Positions 788-41,927 of a stretch of DNA of 45,053 nucleotides are shown here, in pieces. Every line of letters starts with the position of its first letter. Within the stretch, counting starts at the first letter, position 1. The notes beneath the pieces are model-generated. The model did no database searches and was not told the DNA's origin. It worked only from the letters and a program-made list of their open reading frames with translations. The stretch is from Microcaldota archaeon (lineage in GTDB: Archaea; Micrarchaeota; Micrarchaeia; Anstonellales; Anstonellaceae). A program made the translations under genes and the position numbers. The stretch lies in the NCBI GenBank assembly GCA_026396415.1, contig JAPLWX010000015.1:1-45053 (forward strand). Direction: 5' to 3'.

Positions 788-1696
788 TCACTCCTCTTTC
801 TTCTTGTGGGCATGGGCGTGCTTCTCTTCAGTAGGCGCAACAGGTTCCTCTTTTGGCGCTTCCGCCTTTTCAGATGGCGCAGGGGTTGCAGCTTCAGCAG
901 GCTTTCCACTCGCCTTCGGCGACTGTCCCTCCAGATGCTCCCGATTCGAGCCTTCAGCTCGAATGGGCGCAGTTTTGCTGTGCAAAACTGCCGTCGCATC
1001 TGAAGGTTCTTCCACTTTCTCCTCCTGCACCGCCGCTTTCACGCTCTCCTCCGCAGCTGCAGGCGCGGCTGCGCCTTCAGGCACCGCAACTTCCTCTCCA
1101 GGCTCTGCCTCGAATGCGGCAAGCGGCTTTTGGAACTCGTCATAAGATGCAATCTTGCCCTTCCCCATCAGGTATTCTCGCGCGAGCAAATAGAAGATAA
1201 GCGCCAAAGAGCGCCTTCCCTTGTTGTTGCAGGGAATCACCCAGTCCACGAATGTGGTGATGTTGTCGCTGTCGCAAAGGCCCACGATGGGGATTCCCAT
1301 TGTGCCCGCCTCGGTGACCGCCTGCCTCTCGCTTCTCGGGTCGCAGATGAGCAGGATCTTCGGCTCCATGAAATCCGCGCGCGCCACGTTGGTAAGAATG
1401 CCCGGGATGAACCTTCCCTGGAAAACCTTTATGCCTGTGACCGCGGAAAACACCGATGCCGCATTGCCCGAATACGTCCTCGAGGCAACCACCATCACCT
1501 CGCCAGGCTCGTACTTGGCAAGGAGCTTCCCGGCCATGCGTATCCTTTCATCAATCTTTCTCAGGTCAAGCACGTAGAGCCCGTCGTTCCTGATGCGGTA
1601 GATGAACGGGTTCATGTCCACGACTTTGAGCTTGGTGCCGATGTGTATGCCGGCCTCAAGATACGTCTCTTGCTTTATCAGGAAATTTTCAGCCAT
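788..1696 (-). CDS. rps2: 30S ribosomal protein uS2 with long Ala/Glu/Lys-rich C-terminal extension
   Basis: MAENFLIKQETYLEAGIHIGTKLKVVDMNPFIYRIRNDGLYVLDLRKIDERIRMAGKLLA... is archaeal uS2; start re-set to 1696 (ORF track start 1753). Confidence 0.95.
   Translation of the reverse strand: MAENFLIKQETYLEAGIHIGTKLKVVDMNPFIYRIRNDGLYVLDLRKIDERIRMAGKLLAKYEPGEVMVVASRTYSGNAASVFSAVTGIKVFQGRFIPGILTNVARADFMEPKILLICDPRSERQAVTEAGTMGIPIVGLCDSDNITTFVDWVIPCNNKGRRSLALIFYLLAREYLMGKGKIASYDEFQKPLAAFEAEPGEEVAVPEGAAAPAAAEESVKAAVQEEKVEEPSDATAVLHSKTAPIRAEGSNREHLEGQSPKASGKPAEAATPAPSEKAEAPKEEPVAPTEEKHAHAHKKKEE
938..970. repeat. Palindromic motif CTCCCGATTCG-stem/loop-CGAATGGGCGC in rps2
   Basis: CTCCCGATTCGAGCCTTCAGCTCGAATGGGCGC; flanked by further perfect hairpins at 908-924 and 969-991. 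Confidence 0.75.
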
Positions 1697-1807
1697 TTTT
1701 TTCACCTTTTTACGGCTTCCCGCAGGCACTTCCCCGCGCGCTTGCGCGGGCACGCCACTCTCGGAACCGCCGAATTACAATAAAATATGGGGCCATCGAG
1801 ATTTGAA

Positions 1808-2003
1808 TTTTCGGAACCCCGAACCTTTCATTCTTAGATTGGAACTTCATTGCCAACTGAGCGATACTCCGCTGCTTGCAGCGGAGCGAAGTTGGCAATA
1901 TTTCGACCGAATGGCGATGATACCCCGCTGCTTGCAGCGGGGCGCCTTCGGTCGAATTCATTCCAATTCTGGCAAATTTCTCTCGAAATTTGCCAAGGGC
2001 ACT
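1808..2003 (-). repeat. Multi-hairpin insert (intron-like or palindromic insertion) inside the tRNA-Pro T-arm
   Basis: Nested perfect stems on the minus strand: GGCAAATTTC/GAAATTTGCC; outer ATTGGAA/TTCCAAT enclosing two related arms, TTCGACCGAA...CCCCGCTGCAAGCAGCGGGG...TTCGGTCGAA and ATTGCCAACT...CTCCGCTGCAAGCAGCGGAG...AGTTGGCAAT. Confidence 0.75.
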
Positions 2004-2040
2004 CTCGAATCTCTAGCACCCCAAGCTAGAAGGCTAGCCA

Positions 2041-2057
2041 GGTTACCCCATGGCCCC
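2041..2057. repeat. att site, left copy (within the full tRNA-Pro)
   Basis: Perfect match to 38215-38231; base before the repeat differs (a versus g), and sequence after it differs. Confidence 0.85.
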
Positions 2058-2106: not shown

Positions 2107-3408
2107 ATGGTCACAGAAGAGGAAAGCCGTCTCATGGGATTCCAGAGGCAGCTTGCATCATCTCGTATGGTAGAAGCCAATCGAGGATATATTGGGAAAT
2201 ATTTAAAAGATGCCCTACTGCGCGGGCTGTCGCCAGGACGCCAGAAAATACTGCTCATGGAAGCACTCTATTGGGAAAAACTGCTCAAAAAGGACTTCAA
2301 GAAGGCGACCGAGGACGACCTGAAGGACGCGGTTTCAAGGATGCAGGCATCGAAATACAGGGATGCGACGAAAAAGAAGAAGGTTGCAATCCTCAAGAAC
2401 TTCTACCGCTGGCTTTATGACGGCGACGAGCTGCCACCGCAAGTCAAATTCGCGAAACGCATCCACTTCAAGGACGTGGAGCTCGATGCAAAGTCAATAA
2501 TCAGGCGCGACGACCTCGAAAAACTGCTCAAGGCCTGCGACAACGTGCGCGACTCAGCCCTGCTTTATCTCATGTGGGAAAGCGGCGTCAGGATTGGCGA
2601 GCTCACGAACGCCAAGCTTGACGACTACAAGGACGAAGGGGCATACTACTCGCTTGAGGTCAATGGAAAGACGGGCAGGCGGAAGATTGTCCTAGTCGAG
2701 TGCGTGCCCTACATGAAAAAATGGCTCAATAAACACCCATTCAGGGCCGCCGCGAACGCCCCCCTCTTCTGCTCCCTGGTCCATAAGACCATGGCGCCGC
2801 TCTCAATCCGCCACACCAATACAACGCTCAAGGCACTGGCTGGAAAGGCGAACATCAAGAAGCCGATTAACCCCCATGCCTTCAGAAGGGCGGCGGCGTC
2901 CGACAAGGCCCCGAGGTACTCCCATGCGACAATCTGCGCCTATTTCGGGTGGCGCCAGGGCAGCCGGACCCCCGCCCGCTACATTGGCGTGGACGCCGAG
3001 CAGACGAATGCCGAAGTGCTCAAGAGCTACGGCATCGGGAAGGACACGAAGCCTGCCCCCATTGCCATGGTGAAGTGCCCGAACTGCGGGACTGAGAACA
3101 TATCCGGGAACCTTGTCTGTGAGCTGTGCTCGCGCGCGCTGAACATGGGGGCGGCGCTAGAGGTGAAGAAGCAGCTCGAAAACGTGCCTTCCCTCCAGCA
3201 GCAGCTTGAGGAGATGCGCAAGGAGCAGGAAGAAACGAATAGGAAGATGCGCGAGGAACAGGAACGGATGAAGAAAGAGATGGAGCAGATGGCGACGCCT
3301 GCCGCGCTCACCACGGTGAGCCGCGGGAAACGGATCAGGGAAGCGCAGCCGTTGATGAAAAAGACCGTGGGGAAGGCGCGCGCCGCCAAGCCAGGCGACC
3401 TGGCTTAG
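2107..3408 (+). CDS. Tyrosine recombinase/integrase with C-terminal zinc ribbon and coiled coil
   Basis: Catalytic-type motifs ESGVRIGELTNAKLDD, NPHAFRRAAASDKAPR and TPARYIGVD; CPNCGTENISGNLVCELC zinc ribbon; adjacent to att. Confidence 0.9.
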   Translation: MVTEEESRLMGFQRQLASSRMVEANRGYIGKYLKDALLRGLSPGRQKILLMEALYWEKLLKKDFKKATEDDLKDAVSRMQASKYRDATKKKKVAILKNFYRWLYDGDELPPQVKFAKRIHFKDVELDAKSIIRRDDLEKLLKACDNVRDSALLYLMWESGVRIGELTNAKLDDYKDEGAYYSLEVNGKTGRRKIVLVECVPYMKKWLNKHPFRAAANAPLFCSLVHKTMAPLSIRHTNTTLKALAGKANIKKPINPHAFRRAAASDKAPRYSHATICAYFGWRQGSRTPARYIGVDAEQTNAEVLKSYGIGKDTKPAPIAMVKCPNCGTENISGNLVCELCSRALNMGAALEVKKQLENVPSLQQQLEEMRKEQEETNRKMREEQERMKKEMEQMATPAALTTVSRGKRIREAQPLMKKTVGKARAAKPGDLA

Positions 3409-24862: not shown

Positions 24863-27800
24863 TCATTCAGCCAGCCAAGCACCAGCAAGCAGCTTTGTCT
24901 GTTCAAGCACAGTATCAGTTGCCTTCTTTTGCTTGTCTGGGGGATAACCGTATCTTCGCAGTATACGTTTTACAATGACGCGCATTTCAGACTGCACACT
25001 CTGCTTGAGCGTCCAGTCAATGGAAACACTGTTCCTGACTGCTTTGACCAATTCCCTTGCGATTGTTTTCAGAGTGTCGTCCCCGAGCACTTTTACCGCG
25101 CTGTCATTGGTTTCGAGCGCGTCATAGAACGCCAGCTCGTCATCATTCAAGCCCAAATCCACTCCACGGTCTGTTTCCTCATTGATTTTCTTGGCCAAAT
25201 TGATAAGTTCTTCCACAACCTGAGCCGAGTCAAGGTTCCTGTTCAAGTAGGCGCGGACGGCCTCTTCCAGCATTTCCGAGAATTGCCTTGCCCTTATCGC
25301 GTTTTTCTTCGCCATCTTCTTTGTCGCGTCGTTTATCAGCTTCCTCAGGACTTCAAGCGCGAGGTTCTTCTGGGGCATGTTCCTTACTTCATCAAGGAAT
25401 TCATCTGAAAGAATGGAAATGTCCGGCCTTTTCAGGCCCGCAACTTCGAAAATGTCAATTACCTGGTCTGAGCTTATTGCCTTGGAAACTATCTGCTTGA
25501 TGGCAGCGTCGGTCTTTTGGCTGTCGCCTGAAGAGGTTATTGTGTATTTGACAAATTGCGCCTTTATTGCCTGGAAGAATGCCAGCTCGTCGCGTATTTT
25601 CGTGGCTTCCGGGTGGGGATAGGCGAGCGCAAACGCGCGCGAAAGCATGTCCACATTTTTCATGAACCTGTCCTTTTGCCCTTTCTGCGAAAGCAGGCGC
25701 TCGATGGTCTGTATTACGATGTACTTTTCCTTAAGGGGAGACTTGAGGAACTGCAGATAACTGACACCATGGAGCATATCCTTCACTATCTCATACTTTT
25801 CAAGCATCGTCTTGACGACCTTTTCCTTGTCAATCGCAGTTTCGCTTCTGTCCTCCTTGGTGTAGTTTGCAAGCGCGACCTTGAGGTTTTCGGCAAGCCC
25901 GATATAGTCAACCACCAGGCCGCCTGGCTTGTCCCTGAACACCCGATTTACCCTGGCAATTGCCTGCATCAATCCATGCCCGCGCATGGGCTTGTCAACA
26001 TAAATGGTGTGCAGACAGGGGATGTCGGTGCCTGTAAGCCACATGTCGCGGACAATCACCATCTTTATCGGGCTTGCGGGCTTTTTGAAAAGAAGCTCGA
26101 TTTCCTTTCTCCTTGGCTTGTTCCTTATGTGGGGCTGCCAATCCAGCTTATCTGTCGCAGAACCAGTCATAATCACTTTTACAACGCCTTTCTTGTCGTC
26201 TTCACTGTGCCACGCCGGGCGAAGCCGGATTATTTCATTGTAAATATCAACGCAAATCCTTCTGCTCATGGCAACGACAAGCACCTTGCCTTCCATTGCC
26301 TCCTGCCGCTTGTCATAGTGGGCGAGCAAATCCTCCACAACCTGCTTTATGCGCTTCTGGCTGCCTACCAGTGCTTCTAGCCTGCTCCATTTGCTCTTGA
26401 GCTTTTCCTTGTGCTCGACTTCCTCCCCTTCGGTAACTTCCTCGAATTCCTCGTCAAGCTTTGGCTTTTCCTCTTCCTTAAGCTCTATTTTGGCAAGCCT
26501 GCCCTCATAGTAGATTGGAACGGTTGCCCTGTCCTTTACGGCTCTCTCAATACTGTAAACATCAACATATTCGCCGAAAACCGCCCTCGTGTCCCTGTCC
26601 ACAAGCTCAATTGGCGTGCCGGTAAAGCCTATGAACGCGGCATTTGGCAGCGCGTCGTGCATGTGCCTTGCAAACCCGCTTATGAAGCCGTATTGGCTTC
26701 TGTGCGCTTCATCCGCGATAACCACGATATTCTTCCTGTCTGAGAGCAGCGGATAAGCGGTTCCTTTCTCATCAGGGAAGAACTTTTGGATGGTGGTGAA
26801 AATAATTCCTCCAGCGGGCCTTGAAAGGAGCTTCTTCAGGCTGTCCCTTGAATCTGCCTGGACCGGCGCCTGCCTAAGGATTGGGGAATTGGCGCAGAAA
26901 GTGTCGAAAAGCTGCCCGTCCAAGTCGTTTCTGTCGGTTAAGACAACAACGGTAGGATTGTTCATCCTGTCATCAAGGAAAAGTAAGCCCGTGTAAAGAA
27001 CCATGGTAAGGCTTTTGCCAGAGCCTTGCGTGTGCCAGACCACGCCGCCTTGCCTGTTTCCTTTCGCGGAGGTTGCCTTTATGGTTGAGGCAAGAGCGGC
27101 TTTCACTGCCCTGTATTGGTGATACTGAGCTATTTTCTTCTTCAGCCCCTCGCCAATGTCCTCGAAAAGAACAAAATGCCTTGCAAAATCAAGCAAAACC
27201 TCCTTTTTCAGCATTCCTCTCAGCATGACTTCCATGGGCATTATTGTCGGGTCATCAACGGTTTCGCCATCAAGCAGCTTCCATTTCATGAACCAGTTCT
27301 GCTCGCTTGTTATCGAGCCAACGCGCGCGTCTCCCGCGTCGCTGAGCATGATAAGCTCGTTGTAATGGAAAAGGGAGGGGATTTGCAACTTGTAGGTCTG
27401 TATTTGGTTGTAGGCTGAGCTGATATCCGCTTTTTCATCGGCAATGTTCTTCAGCTCAATAACTACCAAGGGAAGCCCGTTCACGAAAACGATTATGTCC
27501 GGGCGCCTATTGTTGTTCTGCTCTATTATGGTGAATTGGTTTATGGCTGCAAACTCGTTGTTCTTTGGGTTTTCAAAGTCGAAAAGCCAGAGTTTCTTGC
27601 TCGTCTGCTTGCCCTTTTCCTTTACCTGAACATCTATTCCATTGACGAGGAGATTGTGGAATGCCTGGTTGTTCTTCACCAAGTTCTGGCTTTCCGCGCG
27701 CTGGAGCTTCTTTACAGCGTCGTCGATTATCTCTTCCGGCAAGGTAGGATTGATGCGTTTAAGCGCGCGTTTGAGCCTTCCAGTAAGCACAACCTGCGAA

Positions 27801-27934
27801 TAGCTTTCGCGCTCAGGCCGCACACCGTCAGGTGCAGGCGCAATGTCGGGCCCATAAACTATCTCGTAGCCCATGCTGGCGAAGAGCTTGAGCGCGTGCT
27901 CCTCAATTTCGGATTCAGTTATGTAGGCGGGCAT
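24863..27934 (-). CDS. hsdR: Type I restriction enzyme R subunit
   Basis: [82 protein letters not shown]-terminal HsdR nuclease region. Confidence 0.96.
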
Positions 27935-27938
27935 CTTC

Positions 27939-29780
27939 TTACCTACTTGTTGTGTTCTTTAATATTTTAATCAGTTTTAATAGGCAATATGCTAGGTATT
28001 TTACATTTCCTTCAATTATCTGTGCGGATTCGAGTTTTCCGTGTAATAAATCATTACGGAGATTTGCTTGGTCATTGTCAGTTAAAGCAACTTTGAGTGT
28101 CTTTTGCAAATCAACACCTATAAGCTCTCCAATTTCATCTTTTGAGAGGAGTGAACCAAGTTCTATTGAACGGAAATATTTCTCTTTTTCATTCCGTAAA
28201 ACTAAATCAACTTTTCCGGCTTTTCGGACAGTTCGCCGCAGAATTTCCTCAAAATAGGGCATGAGGATATGCACTCCTGCGATGAAATCCGGTTTGTCTG
28301 AGAAAATGTAATTGAACCCCTGTTTTAATGTTGGTTTAATATCATCTAGATCAGGATTATCAAGCAGTTCATCAATATACGTGTAAGATTCTTTTCCAAA
28401 TTCGCGCTCCATTTCTTCTAGAGTGTACTTAAGCATAAGTTCACCAATCTTCATTCCGAGTAAAGTGTTCTTTCGCACCCAATAATCGAAAATATCTTCT
28501 TCTTGTGATATTTGTAAAACTGGCTCCTCACTTCGACTCACAACAACTGGAAAGATGTAAAGCAGTGGCGACTCTTTCTTTTGTTCCAAAGTAGATTTTA
28601 AAGTGTGTTCATAGGACGGAATAAGCTCAGAGTTATCTATCAAAGCCTTAAAGGGATTGGAATCTGTATCAGTTAGCTGTTTGAGGAATTGGTCGATTTG
28701 GGCTTTTTTGATTTCAAAGGTAGAACTAACTTGTTTATAACGTATTTTCGGCCCCATCTCAGTAATCTCAGATGTAAGTTCGTTGATTCTTCTCTTAATC
28801 TCATCCTTATGTTCTGGAAACGAACCTAGCATTGACTGATATTTTTTTGCCGCATCAGTGCAAAATGAAGAACGCAAAAGTTCTCCTCTTCCATTTCCTT
28901 CATTAATGTGGGATTCTGCAATTTTATTATGGAGATCATACAGTTTTTCTTTAGGTGAATATCGAATCTTTAACTCAAGATAGCTCCTTAGAAAATGATA
29001 GTTGCGGCTGGTTTCAACTGTTTTTTCGATATCAGCTATACACTTATCAAGTTGTTCTGCACTTTCTTTTTTTAGTTCATCAAGACCTTGAATTTTAGCT
29101 AGATATCTTGCTTCGACTTGGAAGAGTTCTAACTGCCATCGTTTCTCACCGCCAGTAATAAGTTTGATTATGGAGTGATGGAGTGACGAGAAAACTCGTT
29201 TGGATAGCTCTTGGTCGTTAATTGAAAGACTCAATTTGAGGGCAATATCATACGCCAGAGGAGGAATTTCATAATATTCCGGATATTTGCCATCATTGAT
29301 ATATTTCTCCGCAGTCTCGAGCCAGCCTTCGATGGATTTTTTCATCCAATCTAGATGCTCCTTGCCAGTACTAAATGTCATTATAGCAAACGCATATCTT
29401 GCTTTTGATAATGGACTGGTTGTTTGTTCATAGCGTATTTTGTAATAGTCTACGGCATCTGAGGACCATTCACAAAATGGAGGATTAGATAACGGTCCGA
29501 AGTCTCCAGATTCTTTGCCTAAGTAGTACTTCCACTTGTTGCTAATCTCTGTTACTTCTTGCCCCTTGTATTGGCCAACATGACCAAATGTTCTATTGAG
29601 AAGATCGACCTCCCAAAGTATCTTCTTTTGAGTATCAACATCTTTATTATCGACAACCTCGCCCATCACTTTCCCGAGTTCTCGTTCGATTTCAAAAGGA
29701 AACATTCGTTCATAATTTGAACTAAGGGCCACTTCAAGAAGTTTGATTACGCTTGTTTGGTTGTACTTAGATATATCCAT
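27939..29780 (-). CDS. Hypothetical protein with HEPN/DUF4209-like C-terminus
   Basis: [31 protein letters not shown]...[14 protein letters not shown] has an RNxxxHG / R-x4-H motif; located inside the hsd operon. Confidence 0.6.
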
Positions 29781-30681
29781 TATACTCACACCATGTTAGA
29801 AATTGCCCAAAATAAACTGTCAATAATAATACATCATCCGGAAGATGTGGACTTTTCAGCCCATAATGAGCGAAAGTGGTTCTGATACCATTTATCCTCT
29901 CGACACTGTCGATAACAATCTTACCTTCCTGCTCATTATCTGGCTTTGTATTGAAGACGTTCTTGCTATTTAGATTAGAATCAAGGAGTTTAACTTTGAA
30001 CAATCCATCTTTATCTGCACTTTTTGTTGCAGGATTTTCCGAAAGTAAATAAGGTTTTCCTTTAAGAGTTTTAAGATTTGCACCTATTGAAAATCCTTCA
30101 TTTAATGAAATGCTTTCCTTTTGAGCGATTCTAAATAGCAATTCCTCCGTGATTACGCATAATGAATATGCTGAATAATAGGCATGCCGAACATCATATG
30201 TTTCATTATAATCTTGGAAAGCATCAAGTGCAAACTTAATCCGTTCCGAAATATCAGTTGTTTTGCCTTCCAAATAGTCTCTGAGGACAAAAAATGGGAG
30301 TCCAATAACTGATTTTAAATCTGTGTTTTCTTTTATATCCGATATATGAATTTCATCTGATTTTATCTCGGCGTTTAGAGTAGAATTTAGTTCTTCTAGC
30401 TTTTGTTTAGATAGGGTGTATACATCTTTCAAATCATCCTCGATATGTGCAATAAAGAAGCCCCCAGCCCACCCATATTCTTTCTCGTTTATTCTTAGGT
30501 GTTTTTTAGTATCTGCGTTGTTTGTTTGAAGACACAACCCAGTTCTTTTTTTTATATCATCAAGATTAATGTTATTGCCTAAACGTATTTGTACGCAATA
30601 TATTTTCCCACAATATGGGTTCATAAGGAAACTGGTGTAAAGTTTTATTGTTTCTTTTGCAACGGGTAGGTTATCCACCAT
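29767..30681 (-). CDS. Hypothetical protein with possible HEPN-like motif
   Basis: ...SVERINGIRTTFAHYGLKSPHLP: R-x4-H near the C-terminus; overlaps the following gene. Confidence 0.5.
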   Translation of the reverse strand: MVDNLPVAKETIKLYTSFLMNPYCGKIYCVQIRLGNNINLDDIKKRTGLCLQTNNADTKKHLRINEKEYGWAGGFFIAHIEDDLKDVYTLSKQKLEELNSTLNAEIKSDEIHISDIKENTDLKSVIGLPFFVLRDYLEGKTTDISERIKFALDAFQDYNETYDVRHAYYSAYSLCVITEELLFRIAQKESISLNEGFSIGANLKTLKGKPYLLSENPATKSADKDGLFKVKLLDSNLNSKNVFNTKPDNEQEGKIVIDSVERINGIRTTFAHYGLKSPHLPDDVLLLTVYFGQFLTWCEYNGYI

Positions 30682-31994
30682 TAATTCACCCGTATTTTTC
30701 CAGACATTAGTTTTGGAAGAAGAGACCCACGGAGCTGGGTAATATTGTCGTTTTCATTAAGATTATATTCATACTTGCTGAATAGTTTTTCTACCATTTG
30801 AGAAAATTTCTTTTGCATATCTATAGGTGGAGCAACAAATCTAAATGATAAAAGTAGTTTTGTATTAAGCGATGGTCTAGTTGAGCCTACTGCATACCCA
30901 TTTACCATATCTATGAACAGAGATTGTTTGAAAACTTGTGCCAAATATTGTGGATTTATCTTAGTCTTATCTGCTCTTACTCGGAGCATTTGCCCGGAAA
31001 TCATCCACGCAGTGTTTCTATCTCGTATAATTGCGGACTCTCCTACAACAGCTACCCTAGTAAATACTATATCACCATAATTTAAGAGATAACGATTCAT
31101 TTCTGGAAACTTATGGACTCCGACCAAAGGCATGTCAGAACCCACTATCTGACCATTCTTTACATGCTTAACTAATATCAATGGCACACCTGTATTGCGA
31201 TAATCTGCTGAATGCAGATTACTACCAAATGGGCCAGTAATCACGCAGTCACTTTTCGAATCGTGAAGTTCTGCTAGTGAAGTTACTTCCCACCCTTCAG
31301 GTATTTCTCCTAGTTCCGACTCCACCATCTTCCCGCCACTCGACTTATAGGATCTGCCTTTTTCGTCCAGAAACTCGAAATCCACGAACCAGTGCTTGAA
31401 GATTGTCTGTGCCATCTCCTCAAGTGTCTTGTTCATCTGGCGGTTCAGGTCGATTCTTGCATCAAAATCGGAAAGAATTTTGGCGATGGAGTGCTGCTCA
31501 GGGAGTGGTGGAATTGTGATTTTTTCGTTGGCGAACACTTTTTCTTGGACGCGCTGTCGCCCGGATGTACCAGACATAGACCTTATGGCCACATTTCTCA
31601 GTGCAGATGATTTTGCGAGATAATAGACAAATTCATTGATACTTTTTCCATCCTTGCCCGACAATACAATAAATTCTGTCGATCCCCAAGCAATTTCCCC
31701 ATTTTTCAGGAAATCGACATAAGCAGTTTTACCATTCTCAAGACAGGGGCTGATGCGTGCCAAAAGCGTATCTCCGTTTTGGAATTTTGACCCTCCATAA
31801 AATTTTCGTTCCACATAATATGTGACTGACTTTTGATTGGCAGTTATATCCGCCATGGATACGTACTTTGCAACATCGTTTTTCTTTAGTTCCCTCTTTG
31901 GATTAATCGAAACGCATTCACTGATTGTGTCTTCTTTCCAGTTTGTCAATTTAAGCACCCATTTTCTGTCAGAGCCGCAGGTTTGAAATATCAT
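30681..31994 (-). CDS. hsdS: Type I restriction enzyme specificity subunit
   Basis: Two target-recognition regions with the conserved helix IPPLPEQHSIAKILSDFDARIDLNRQMNKTLEEMAQTIFKHWFVDF. Confidence 0.95.
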   Translation of the reverse strand: MIFQTCGSDRKWVLKLTNWKEDTISECVSINPKRELKKNDVAKYVSMADITANQKSVTYYVERKFYGGSKFQNGDTLLARISPCLENGKTAYVDFLKNGEIAWGSTEFIVLSGKDGKSINEFVYYLAKSSALRNVAIRSMSGTSGRQRVQEKVFANEKITIPPLPEQHSIAKILSDFDARIDLNRQMNKTLEEMAQTIFKHWFVDFEFLDEKGRSYKSSGGKMVESELGEIPEGWEVTSLAELHDSKSDCVITGPFGSNLHSADYRNTGVPLILVKHVKNGQIVGSDMPLVGVHKFPEMNRYLLNYGDIVFTRVAVVGESAIIRDRNTAWMISGQMLRVRADKTKINPQYLAQVFKQSLFIDMVNGYAVGSTRPSLNTKLLLSFRFVAPPIDMQKKFSQMVEKLFSKYEYNLNENDNITQLRGSLLPKLMSGKIRVN

Positions 31995-31997
31995 GCA

Positions 31998-32849
31998 TCA
32001 CTTGCAGAATTTTTGCTCTATCTCCAAGATTTTCATGCCATCAATGGTTCCATAATTGCCGTCATCGTCTGCCTTGTCATCAATTTCTAATCCCTCTTCG
32101 CGCTGTTTTTCATCTGCTGGCCGGTATGAAAGAGAGCCGCCGTAATATATCAGGTCTTTTCCGTTCACATGGATGGAGAGTTGCACAGATACGGGATTCG
32201 AAAACCAGTGTTCCTCTATCTTTTTCTCGTTGAAAATCACTATTGGCACGCCATCGTTGAAGTAGATAGGTAGATTTGCTATTGGCATATTGCGCTCAAG
32301 CCCGCCAAGATAAACTTCTTTCAAATCAAAGACGCACTCCAAGTCAATCGCCTCGTGCGGTTGTAGATTTATCGGCAATGATGGCTTCCTTGATGCCGGG
32401 CGCAGGGTAAAGCAGGTCGGTTTGCCGTATTTGTCAAGCCCAGCCTCTTTGTGCTTTTTCCTGTCGTATTTGAACGTTCCAAGGATATCGGTTATGCAGA
32501 TGCTCTCTTCTTTATTATTGATTATTCCAACGTGTAGCTTACCTCTCAGGTTTGCAAGGCGATTTTTCATTCCTGCTTGTTTCTGCATGCGGTCGCGAAC
32601 CCTCTTTGGTATCTTCGCGTTGCCCTGATAGCCTTTGTTTTCTCCTACTAACGCCACGCCGCCCTCTTGTATAGGGATGCCTGAGAGGACTAAGGTTCGT
32701 TCACCTGTGAAATATAAATGACCTGTAGCATAAGAAACCTCAATCTTCTTCGTCAATTTCTTCCATAACGAGTAGGCGACCTGAACGGCAGCGTACGCGC
32801 CACCTATTATCCCCATTACAGTGTATGCCAATGCAAAATCAAACGTCAT
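31998..32849 (-). CDS. Hypothetical membrane-anchored protein embedded in hsd operon
   Basis: N-terminal TM MTFDFALAYTVMGIIGGAYAAVQVAYSLW followed by a soluble beta-rich-looking region; start set at an ATG overlapping the hsdM-tail relic. Confidence 0.7.
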   Translation of the reverse strand: MTFDFALAYTVMGIIGGAYAAVQVAYSLWKKLTKKIEVSYATGHLYFTGERTLVLSGIPIQEGGVALVGENKGYQGNAKIPKRVRDRMQKQAGMKNRLANLRGKLHVGIINNKEESICITDILGTFKYDRKKHKEAGLDKYGKPTCFTLRPASRKPSLPINLQPHEAIDLECVFDLKEVYLGGLERNMPIANLPIYFNDGVPIVIFNEKKIEEHWFSNPVSVQLSIHVNGKDLIYYGGSLSYRPADEKQREEGLEIDDKADDDGNYGTIDGMKILEIEQKFCK

Positions 32850-32901
32850 ACCCAATTCCCTTCATGTTCTTCTTTATCTCCTTCTTAAGCTCCACCGATT
32901 T
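32839..32901 (-). pseudogene. Relic duplicate of the hsdM 3' end
   Basis: Minus strand encodes [21 protein letters not shown], matching the HsdM tail [47 protein letters not shown] nearly identical between copies. Confidence 0.75.
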
Positions 32902-33569
32902 GTTGTGCGGCTATCTTTCCTTTTCTCATGTTCACTAGCATGTTCTTTAACTCAGACAAAAAGGCGCCGTGCTTATCTACGGGCGTATTAATTAATCTCT
33001 CAATATCTGTTTCACTCGCAATTGATGTGTTGAGTTCGACTTTGAGCAGGTGGAGAAGCTCTATTGCTTCTTCAACATCATCGAGATCTTTATCTACTGG
33101 TTTTATTGTTTTATTATATAGATACTCATACCAGATTAATCCAAATATGACACATGCAATAAACACGCCCATGGCAATTACAAGCAATCCGAACGTACCA
33201 GCTATTGATTTGTTAGCTTGCGCGTAACTATCTGCAAGGTTGATCCAGTTAAGGGTTGAATTAAGCACGGTTTCTTTCAGAGAAGTTGAATTGGTTTGAT
33301 TGAAATTGCAAAATGGACCGTTTACAAGACTGTTTACTTGCTCTTGCGTTTTTGATACTGCCTCTAAGGTCAACCCACTAGTCTGTACTACGGATGAAAA
33401 GAATGTACCTAATAGCAATGCTATCGTTAATGCTATTGTACTTATTGCAAGAAATGTATCTATTCTGTTTTTCTTTTCTGTCATCTGTTCGTTCTTGATG
33501 CGCATAAGTATTTCCTGCTGGAACTTGAAGTAGGCGATTGACTTTTCAATAAATGCTTCTTCCTGTGCA

Positions 33570-33583
<14 letters not shown>
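32885..33583 (-). CDS. Hypothetical two-TM coiled-coil protein embedded in hsd operon
   Basis: [33 protein letters not shown]...; two strong hydrophobic helices; start overlaps the hsdM 3' end. Confidence 0.7.
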
Positions 33584-35093
<1,510 letters not shown>

Positions 35094-35171
35094 ATAAACA
35101 CCATCATTCCGGCTAATATTAGCCATTTAGGCCTCAAATTCACATACTACGGCCAGGACGTTCCCCTCACA

Positions 35172-40440: not shown

Positions 40441-41136
40441 TCATACGCGGCGACCTCTCCTTCCGCCCGGCCTTTTCGTGGTGTCGGTCGGAGTGGGGGT
40501 GACGTCCTCAATCTTCCCAATCCTCAAGCCCATCCTTGCAAGCGAGCGGACCACCGACTGCGCGCCTGCGCCTGGCGTCTTTGCGCCATGGCCGCCAGGT
40601 GCGCGTATCCTGATGTGAAGCCCGGTTATCCCGCGGTTCTTCACCTCGTTTGCAACCTTGGCTGCAGCCTGCATTGCCGCATAGGGCTTGCCCTCCTCCC
40701 TGTCCGCCTTCACAATCATCCCGCCCGATGCCTTGGCAATCGTTTCCGCGCCGGACAGGTCGGTGACCGTGAGTATCGTGTCGTTTTTCGAGGAGAAAAC
40801 ATGGCACACCGCCCACTTGTAATCCCTCCTCGCCATCGGGCGCGGGGGAAGTGCCCCTGTCGCCGGTGCGACGGCGGCTGGTGCCGCTGCGGCAGGCGCT
40901 GCTGCCGGAGCCACAACTGGAGTGGATGCGCCGCCTGATGGCACATCCGGGGGCTTGCTGTCATCTCCCTTGTTTTCAGGAGCCTCCTTTGCTGCTGCCT
41001 CGGCGTGCTTGTGCTCCTCCCGATTCGCCGTCTTCGGCGAATGGGCGCCGCCTTCGGCGCGCGTTGCGTGAACGTGCTTGGTCGCTTCTTCGGCAACCTT
41101 CACTTCCTCTTTTTTCTCAACTTCGTCTGAAACCAT
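40441..41136 (-). CDS. rps11: 30S ribosomal protein uS11 with about 110-aa low-complexity N-terminal extension
   Basis: C-terminal [106 protein letters not shown]. Confidence 0.95.
41017..41048. repeat. Palindromic motif CTCCCGATTCG-stem/loop-CGAATGGGCGC in rps11 (paralogue at 938-970 in rps2)
   Basis: Direct comparison of 41017-41048 with 938-970. Confidence 0.75.
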
Positions 41137-41152
41137 AAGAATCACCAATCAC

Positions 41153-41743
41153 TTAGGCTGCCTCGGCAGGCGCTTCGGGCTTGTCTGCCCCCTCGGCAGA
41201 AGCAGGCGCCTCCGCTTTCTTGGATGCTCTGGCCGCCTTTGCCTCCTTGTCCTCCTCGTGAACCGTTATGTCAATGGGCTTGTAGTAGGAGACAAGCGAG
41301 TCCTCCCTCACCCCCACCACGTAGGAGGGGATGGTCACGCACTTGCCGCCGACCGCGATGAAGCCGTGCGTCACAAGCTGGCGCGCCTGGCCCGGCGTCC
41401 TTGCAAGCCCCTTTTTCATCACGCGCGTCTGGAGCCTCCTGTCCAGGAAGTTCTCGACCGAAAGCGCCAGCACGTCGTCAAGCTTTGCCTCGGGCGGCAC
41501 AATGCCAAGCTTTATGAGCCTCTCCATCAGCGGCTTGCCCTTTTCCGCGCTGGCTTCGCCCAATGAAAGGTATTTCATTGCCCCGCTCCTCGCCTTCTTA
41601 AGCTCGCGGAGCGCCACCCAGATTTCCCTGGTGTTCTTCAGCCCGTAGACCGCGGTAAGGCCCTTGTCCCTCTTTATCCTTTCCGCGTCCCAGACTTTCC
41701 TGGGCGATTCGTATTTGTTCCTAAGTTTCCTTGGATCTCCCAT
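41153..41743 (-). CDS. rps4: 30S ribosomal protein uS4
   Basis: [42 protein letters not shown]...[31 protein letters not shown]; start re-set from 41875. Confidence 0.95.
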
Positions 41744-41927
41744 CAAAATCACCAACAATCCAAGCCCGAAGCCCGCCCTCTTCGCGCTCTGCGCGAAGGG
41801 GCCCCTTTTTGCCACGAGGCAAAAAGAGGGTGCCTTTCGGGCACGGGTAACGGCTTGTTCCTGCTTCGATTGCAATTTTCCATATCCATCTGCAAACCCG
41901 AGCCGTTAGGCTTGGGTTGTTGACCGC
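41744..41927. repeat. Multi-hairpin cruciform-capable insert between rps13 and rps4
   Basis: Minus strand: outer CAACAACCCAAGCC ... GGGCTTGGATTGTTG; inner stems TAACGGCT/AGCCGTTA, GTGCC/GGCAC, CTTTTTGCC/GGCAAAAAG, CTTCGCGC/GCGCGAAG. Confidence 0.7.

Follow-up and report, generated by a model that had tools for sequence, protein, structure and literature searches.

The DNA analysed here, hereafter the window, is a stretch of 45,053 nucleotides from an archaeon of the Micrarchaeota (contig JAPLWX010000015.1). Among its genes are those of the ribosomal proteins uS2 (rps2, 788–1702) and uS11 (rps11, 40441–41139), both on the minus strand, the former ending in a low-complexity C-terminal tail and the latter beginning with an N-terminal extension. 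A first-pass annotation had pointed to a palindrome in each of these regions (938–970 and 41017–41048), and both fit the pattern CTCCCGATTCGN{4,20}CGAATGGGCGC exactly, against none in 100 shuffles. The 33-nt palindrome of rps2 had been taken for the element itself, beside two unrelated hairpins. This reading was rejected, since the palindrome and one of its neighbours are parts of a single junction: a two-hairpin module of about 57 nt together with a stem provided by the host. In uS2 the inserted module occupies positions 939–995 of the plus strand (57 nt), in place of the 3-nt loop AGC found in G008, a relative of the same genus (Micrarchaeota bin-1051). Arm P2 (940–967, plus strand), which contains the palindrome already noticed, is composed of CCC, a bulged G, ATTCGAGC..GCTCGAAT and GGG. 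Arm P3 (969–991, plus strand) reads GCAGTTTTGC TGT GCAAAACTGC and forms a perfect 10-bp stem that covaries across copies; the flanking hairpin described there is thus real but is not a separate one. The other hairpin (908–924) has a stem of 5 bp and is not counted as part of the element. The enclosing stem, P1, is formed on the plus strand by 932–938 (CAGATGC) and 996–1002 (GCATCTG), the 5′ and 3′ halves of a pre-existing host hairpin which is also seen in the empty site of G008. From the reading of the flanks and from folding, P1 is specific to each copy and encloses P2 and P3, giving a three-way junction. On the strand of the covariance model the order is P1, T, P2 (CCC, a bulged base, ATT..AAT, GGG), C, P3 (GCAG..CTGC), CGTC and the second half of P1, so that the mobile unit, of about 54–58 nt, reads in the coding-strand sense GACG-(GCAGTTTTGC..GCAAAACTGC)-G-(CCCATT..AATCGGG)-A. 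The model matches the uS2 copy at 930–1005 with an E-value of 7.6e-18.

The three-helix structure was examined in an alignment of eight copies. Paired cells amount to 94.3%, compared with 81.3% in shuffles and 29–45% with slid partners, and double-sided changes are found in 25 cells, compared with 7.2 in shuffles. The sequences of P1 and P3 vary among these copies while Watson-Crick pairing is kept, with no G-U pair in either stem. In a larger collection of about 42 elements, 875 Watson-Crick, 13 G-T and 7 A-C pairs were counted (about 2% wobble), but these elements were picked for near-perfect stems, and the eight-copy alignment is the less biased source for pairing. RNA helices under selection are usually rich in G-U pairs. 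Their absence from P1 and P3 therefore points to DNA rather than RNA, and the stems may be read as DNA palindromes that are either young or held perfect through arm-to-arm correction. A structured RNA such as a riboswitch, a ribozyme or a small RNA, in which the junction would be under selection and the copies inside genes incidental, would account for the conserved junction, the covarying stems, the very stable predicted folds and the related junctions in class-level relatives. Such an RNA is nonetheless very unlikely, given not only the lack of G-U pairs but also the copies that lie inside open reading frames, the origin of P1 from the target and the differences in presence and absence at orthologous sites of near relatives. 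In addition, the curated Rfam covariance models gave no match for the element.

The module is dispersed over the genome in many copies, as is characteristic of protein-coding palindromic elements. A genome-wide search (1.74 Mb, 52 contigs) returned 8 matches to CCCGATTCGN{4,30}CGAATGGG and 13 to ATTCGN{4,20}CGAATGGG, with none in the reversed control, and the possibility that the motif is confined to the two sites first noticed can be set aside. The covariance model, built from the eight copies and with rough E-values, gives 41 matches at E≤1, in which some places are counted again through reverse-strand or partial matches, and about 22 distinct places at E≤1e-3. Two of the copies lie at the far end of the window. 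The homologous copy announced for rps11 is present with P2 intact, although it is only partial: the module (41009–41065, plus strand; P2 at 41019–41045; E 2e-4) has a shorter P3 and no clear P1, and codes for 13 residues. The other copy (41766–41841, plus strand; E 5.2e-5) lies in the leader of uS4 (41153–41743, minus strand) and is a variant with CCTCTTCGCGC..GCGCGAAGGGG as P2 and CTTTTTGCC..GGCAAAAAG as P3, a layout that also occurs ahead of a Mur-ligase-like gene (L132) and at one further locus (L142).

Copies in frame were found in eight open reading frames, namely those of uS2, uS11, uL24, eL8 (two), topoisomerase I, V-ATPase subunit I, Pus10 and a protein of 919 amino acids without a Pfam match; except for the last, these are unrelated conserved genes. 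Most of the genic copies lie in low-complexity tails or loops, and the remaining copies are in leaders or between genes. The frames of rps2 and rps11 are both open across the element, as had been claimed, and all the genic copies seen keep the frame, with a usual gain of 18 codons. The encoded peptides recur, a hydrophilic KTAPIxAxGSNRE in one frame and GAxSPKxxxRE in another, and those predicted across the insert include ..LHSKTAPIRAEGSNR.. in uS2 and ..GKTAPIGAQGSNR.. in uL24. In G001, also of the same genus, RVLQGKTAPIGAAGSNREE was recognized by eye in another low-complexity reading frame (L085). All genic copies of the own genome (G000) are antisense to the model strand, and so is L085. 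By our reading, one copy of G008 (L081) is in the sense orientation, for which reason a strict orientation acting as a mechanism at the RNA level was rejected; a filter at the level of the peptide is the simpler reason for the bias. The likeness to the Rickettsia palindromic elements (RPEs) proposed in the first-pass annotation is borne out insofar as this is a dispersed palindromic element lying in frame in coding genes. It might be argued that the inserts are archaeal introns with a bulge-helix-bulge motif, removed from the mRNA; indeed, this genome has tRNA introns, and that in the tRNA-Pro of the window is unusual. This is hardly credible, however, because the frame is open in all eight reading frames, with single and with nested inserts alike, and because the modules form three-way junctions and contain no bulge-helix-bulge motif. 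In addition, the modules between genes range from 49 to 57 nt, while the copies in uS2 and topoisomerase I both measure 57 nt.

All the genomes compared, that of the window included, appear to be metagenome assemblies. Model matches were found in 17 of 99 relatives, some of them related at the level of order or class only, and, at E≤1e-5, in 16 of 295 genomes of a phylum-wide sample; both counts include the own genome and are lower bounds, only some of the first-look candidates having been scored. A pattern scan of named genomes gave, among DPANN archaea, seven loci in four organisms: two Micrarchaeota, DeMMO2_7 (G012) and one member of the Diapherotrites, whose record reaches 28.5 bits with the covariance model. 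DeMMO2_7 was equated with G012, and Micrarchaeota bin-1051 with G008, through identical match positions and scores. Exact-pattern matches in bacteria were put down to chance, because the top-scoring loci are those of DPANN archaea and most bacterial scores do not exceed 20.5 bits. One in Pseudoxanthomonas (L068:6872–6934) stands above the other bacterial matches with 28.9 bits, covers model positions 11–61 only, and may be either chance or a homologue. Rickettsia is absent among the exact-pattern matches. Carriage by viruses was considered and dismissed, the pattern being present in two viral contigs with scores of just 18–22 bits, and the plasmids and phages searched gave no match.

Evidence on how the module spreads comes from orthologous sites in relatives. 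The uS2 proteins of G008 and the window are 97% identical over residues 2–228, and in an alignment with 14 relatives the 18 inserted residues are found in the own genome alone. None of the same-genus relatives examined has the insert, which disposes of the alternative that the extension is conserved across the whole lineage. At the DNA level, G008 has the hairpin CAGATGC-AGC-GCATCTG where the window has CAGATGC, the 57-nt module and GCATCTG, a net gain of 54 nt. Similarly, CTCGCC-AAA-GGCGA in uL24 of G008 carries the module in the own genome, again with a net gain of 54 nt, although the 3′ half of P1 here reads ATTGA and pairing is lost on one side; and TCGTGC-TGCG-GCACGA in Pus10 of G008 gains 54 nt. 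The receiving stems are of 7 bp in uS2, 5 bp in uL24 and 6 bp in Pus10. In 24 kb of comparable G008 DNA, the centres of loops closed by stems of at least 5, 6 and 7 bp account for only 0.3%, 0.075% and 0.025% of positions, respectively, and three of three insertions at hairpin loops are therefore unlikely to be chance. These three are the clean empty sites, all of them defined against one near relative; topoisomerase I and uS11 (42 nt longer in the own genome than in G008) were left aside because their tails aligned too poorly. As a caution, a paired P1 raises the score in the model through which the uL24 and Pus10 copies came to light, but the copies selected by pattern, that of uS2 among them, were chosen on P2 alone, and in about 10 of these 13 P1 nonetheless reaches 6 bp or more. 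At the three sites, then, the element has inserted into the loop of an existing hairpin, replacing or extending a loop of 3–4 nt and turning the old hairpin into the third stem of a three-way junction.

Modules also insert into one another's loops and nest. In Pus10, G003 and G005 have no module, G008 has one and the own genome two, and the hairpin that received the second is P3 of the older module, shared by G008 and the own genome. V-ATPase subunit I is longer by 108 nt (2 × 54) than in G003 and G005, with one module within another. At L019/L126 a module sits inside P3 of another kind of module, and in the 919-residue reading frame a hairpin lies within P2. The reciprocal case exists as well, a composite insert of G008 which is missing from the own genome. 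A further junction module with a comparable layout, TCAG-(CATCG..CGATG)-TCTGA-(TGCATTTTGC..GCAAAATGCA)-CATC, was noticed at L006, L046, L081 and L096, and its second hairpin often holds a module of the first type. Growth of hairpins in place, through fold-back synthesis and template switching during replication and with no mobile element at all, would fit such common nesting and the near-perfect arms that differ in each copy, and PMC6649704 discusses template switching, a known origin of short perfect inverted repeats. This too we judge very improbable: the linker GACG and the proximal arm CCCATT..AATCGGG are common to unrelated loci and to other genera, so that copying from a donor is needed.

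Taken as a whole, the segment 932–1002 is likely to represent one copy of a mobile palindromic element of the Micrarchaeota that is small, non-autonomous and RPE-like and inserts into hairpin loops. The module would be copied and inserted as folded single-stranded DNA, a putative recombinase or transposase that reads structure might act in trans on an extruded or single-stranded hairpin, and template switching between the arms could restore their identity. Most copies are probably neutral or selfish. The chances seem about even that these elements represent an archaeal class that targets any DNA hairpin loop regardless of sequence, in which each insertion creates new targets, trees of nested three-way junctions arise and a standard peptide of 18 codons is added to core proteins. 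Against the mobile-element reading stand the uL24 copy, with P1 unpaired on one side, and the partial copy in uS11; no donor, enzyme or transposition intermediate has been identified. A more specific version, in which a miniature element of the PATE or REP kind with two subterminal hairpins is moved by an IS200/IS605 (Y1) transposase through single-stranded DNA, draws on the two hairpins with short conserved linkers, the two Y1 transposases of this genome, at C25:92104 and C25:118044, and a second repeat in the same genome, whose two TTCAT ends are what such an element should have. We consider it rather unlikely, in view of the lack of a fixed target sequence (the left flanks are the variable arms of P1, and only an inner GC recurs), the flanking hairpins of both Y1 genes, which differ from the module, and the distribution of Y1, which does not track the element (G008 and G012 bear the element without a Y1 match). 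Zinc-ribbon tyrosine recombinases adjoining tRNA genes (window 2107–3408; L136) are a second candidate for the enzyme, after Y1.

The module shares features with several known systems. RPEs are dispersed palindromic repeats that lie between genes and in frame in unrelated conserved genes, to which they add a tolerated peptide (PMC10969869; PMC2229807). The module resembles them in this in-frame and intergenic occurrence and in the added peptide, but RPEs are long-stem elements of Rickettsia of about 105–150 bp (105–146 bp in PMC2229807), a length that the 49–57-nt module does not reach, and it has two hairpins, occupies a host hairpin loop, nests and is not known to belong to an RPE sequence family. 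It is therefore RPE-like in behaviour and not an RPE by length or lineage. The first-pass annotation named no archaeal equivalent in ribosomal proteins, and the view that archaea lack a precedent is incorrect: Methanocaldococcus jannaschii has palindromic repetitive elements with coding potential, described by Suyama et al. (2005), whom PMC2229807 and PMC2996958 cite. As the citing papers describe them, these are likewise archaeal, palindromic and dispersed, and some lie within protein genes without breaking them, although in another phylum. Palindromes inside palindromes are also found in the organelle DNA of Volvox, where short repeats build compound ones (PMC2670323); those are mostly in non-coding DNA and show neither frame-keeping insertions in proteins nor stepwise empty sites, both of which the module has. 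The mitochondrial repetitive or double hairpin elements are mobile, have two hairpins, occur also in genes and are kept in transcripts (PMC2800124), but their stems are conserved and their loops vary, whereas in the module the distal stems vary and pairing is kept. Finally, miniature and REP elements derived from IS200/IS605 are, like the module, hairpin-ended and non-autonomous, with a plausible single-stranded DNA mechanism; the shared transposase ends and the fixed short target of that group were looked for in the module and not found. What is new is the lineage, the Micrarchaeota, together with insertion into hairpin loops and the stepwise nesting demonstrated here. A literature search that covered few subscription papers gave no earlier report for Micrarchaeota or DPANN archaea, and no description of a hairpin-loop target backed by a direct series of states before and after insertion.

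The filled, half-filled and empty sites of near relatives point to one rule, insertion into hairpin loops, so that defined DNA substrates can be used to test the mechanism. To our knowledge, the way in which palindromic coding elements spread has been an open question since their description in Rickettsia, and we are aware of no report that RPEs target hairpin loops. Judging from the reading frames, essential archaeal proteins, such as ribosomal proteins and topoisomerase I, would have here a route to gain peptide segments in steps of 18 codons. The inserts also mark the history of insertion precisely, in a group for which most knowledge comes from metagenomes.

Several other features were observed nearby. 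A tRNA-Pro (GGG) on the minus strand of the window (1788–2057), missed by ARAGORN and Rfam, has a T-arm intron recognized by eye, of about 190 nt here and about 32 nt in G008, enlarged through the TTCAT repeat (1846–1961, plus strand) and another hairpin. This repeat belongs to another family, with TTCAT on both sides and two imperfect hairpins containing GATAC-YCCGCTG-CTTG-CAGCGGRG, and measures 116 nt in all five copies read (the window, L202, L204, L206 and L208). Both hairpins occur at 6 places of the own genome and one at a 7th; no copy was found in 29 relatives, and it is missing from G008 at the tRNA-Pro site. Its layout suggests a miniature element of the IS200/IS605 type, and a reading frame seems to be broken at its 3′ end by the L208 copy. 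The gene at 2107–3408, which adjoins the tRNA-Pro, encodes by its sequence a tyrosine recombinase with a zinc ribbon, and L136 (contig C25) has a similar integrase/zinc-ribbon gene not far from a further copy of the element. On contig C7 of the own genome, a Rfam match to a group II intron (L010:60–135; 43.5 bits, gathering threshold 40) is close to two variant copies of the element, one of which has a near-identical duplicate on C18. Within the window, positions 24863–35126 hold, judging by the sequences of the reading frames, a putative type I restriction-modification set with HsdR-, HsdS- and HsdM-like reading frames and unknown genes between them.
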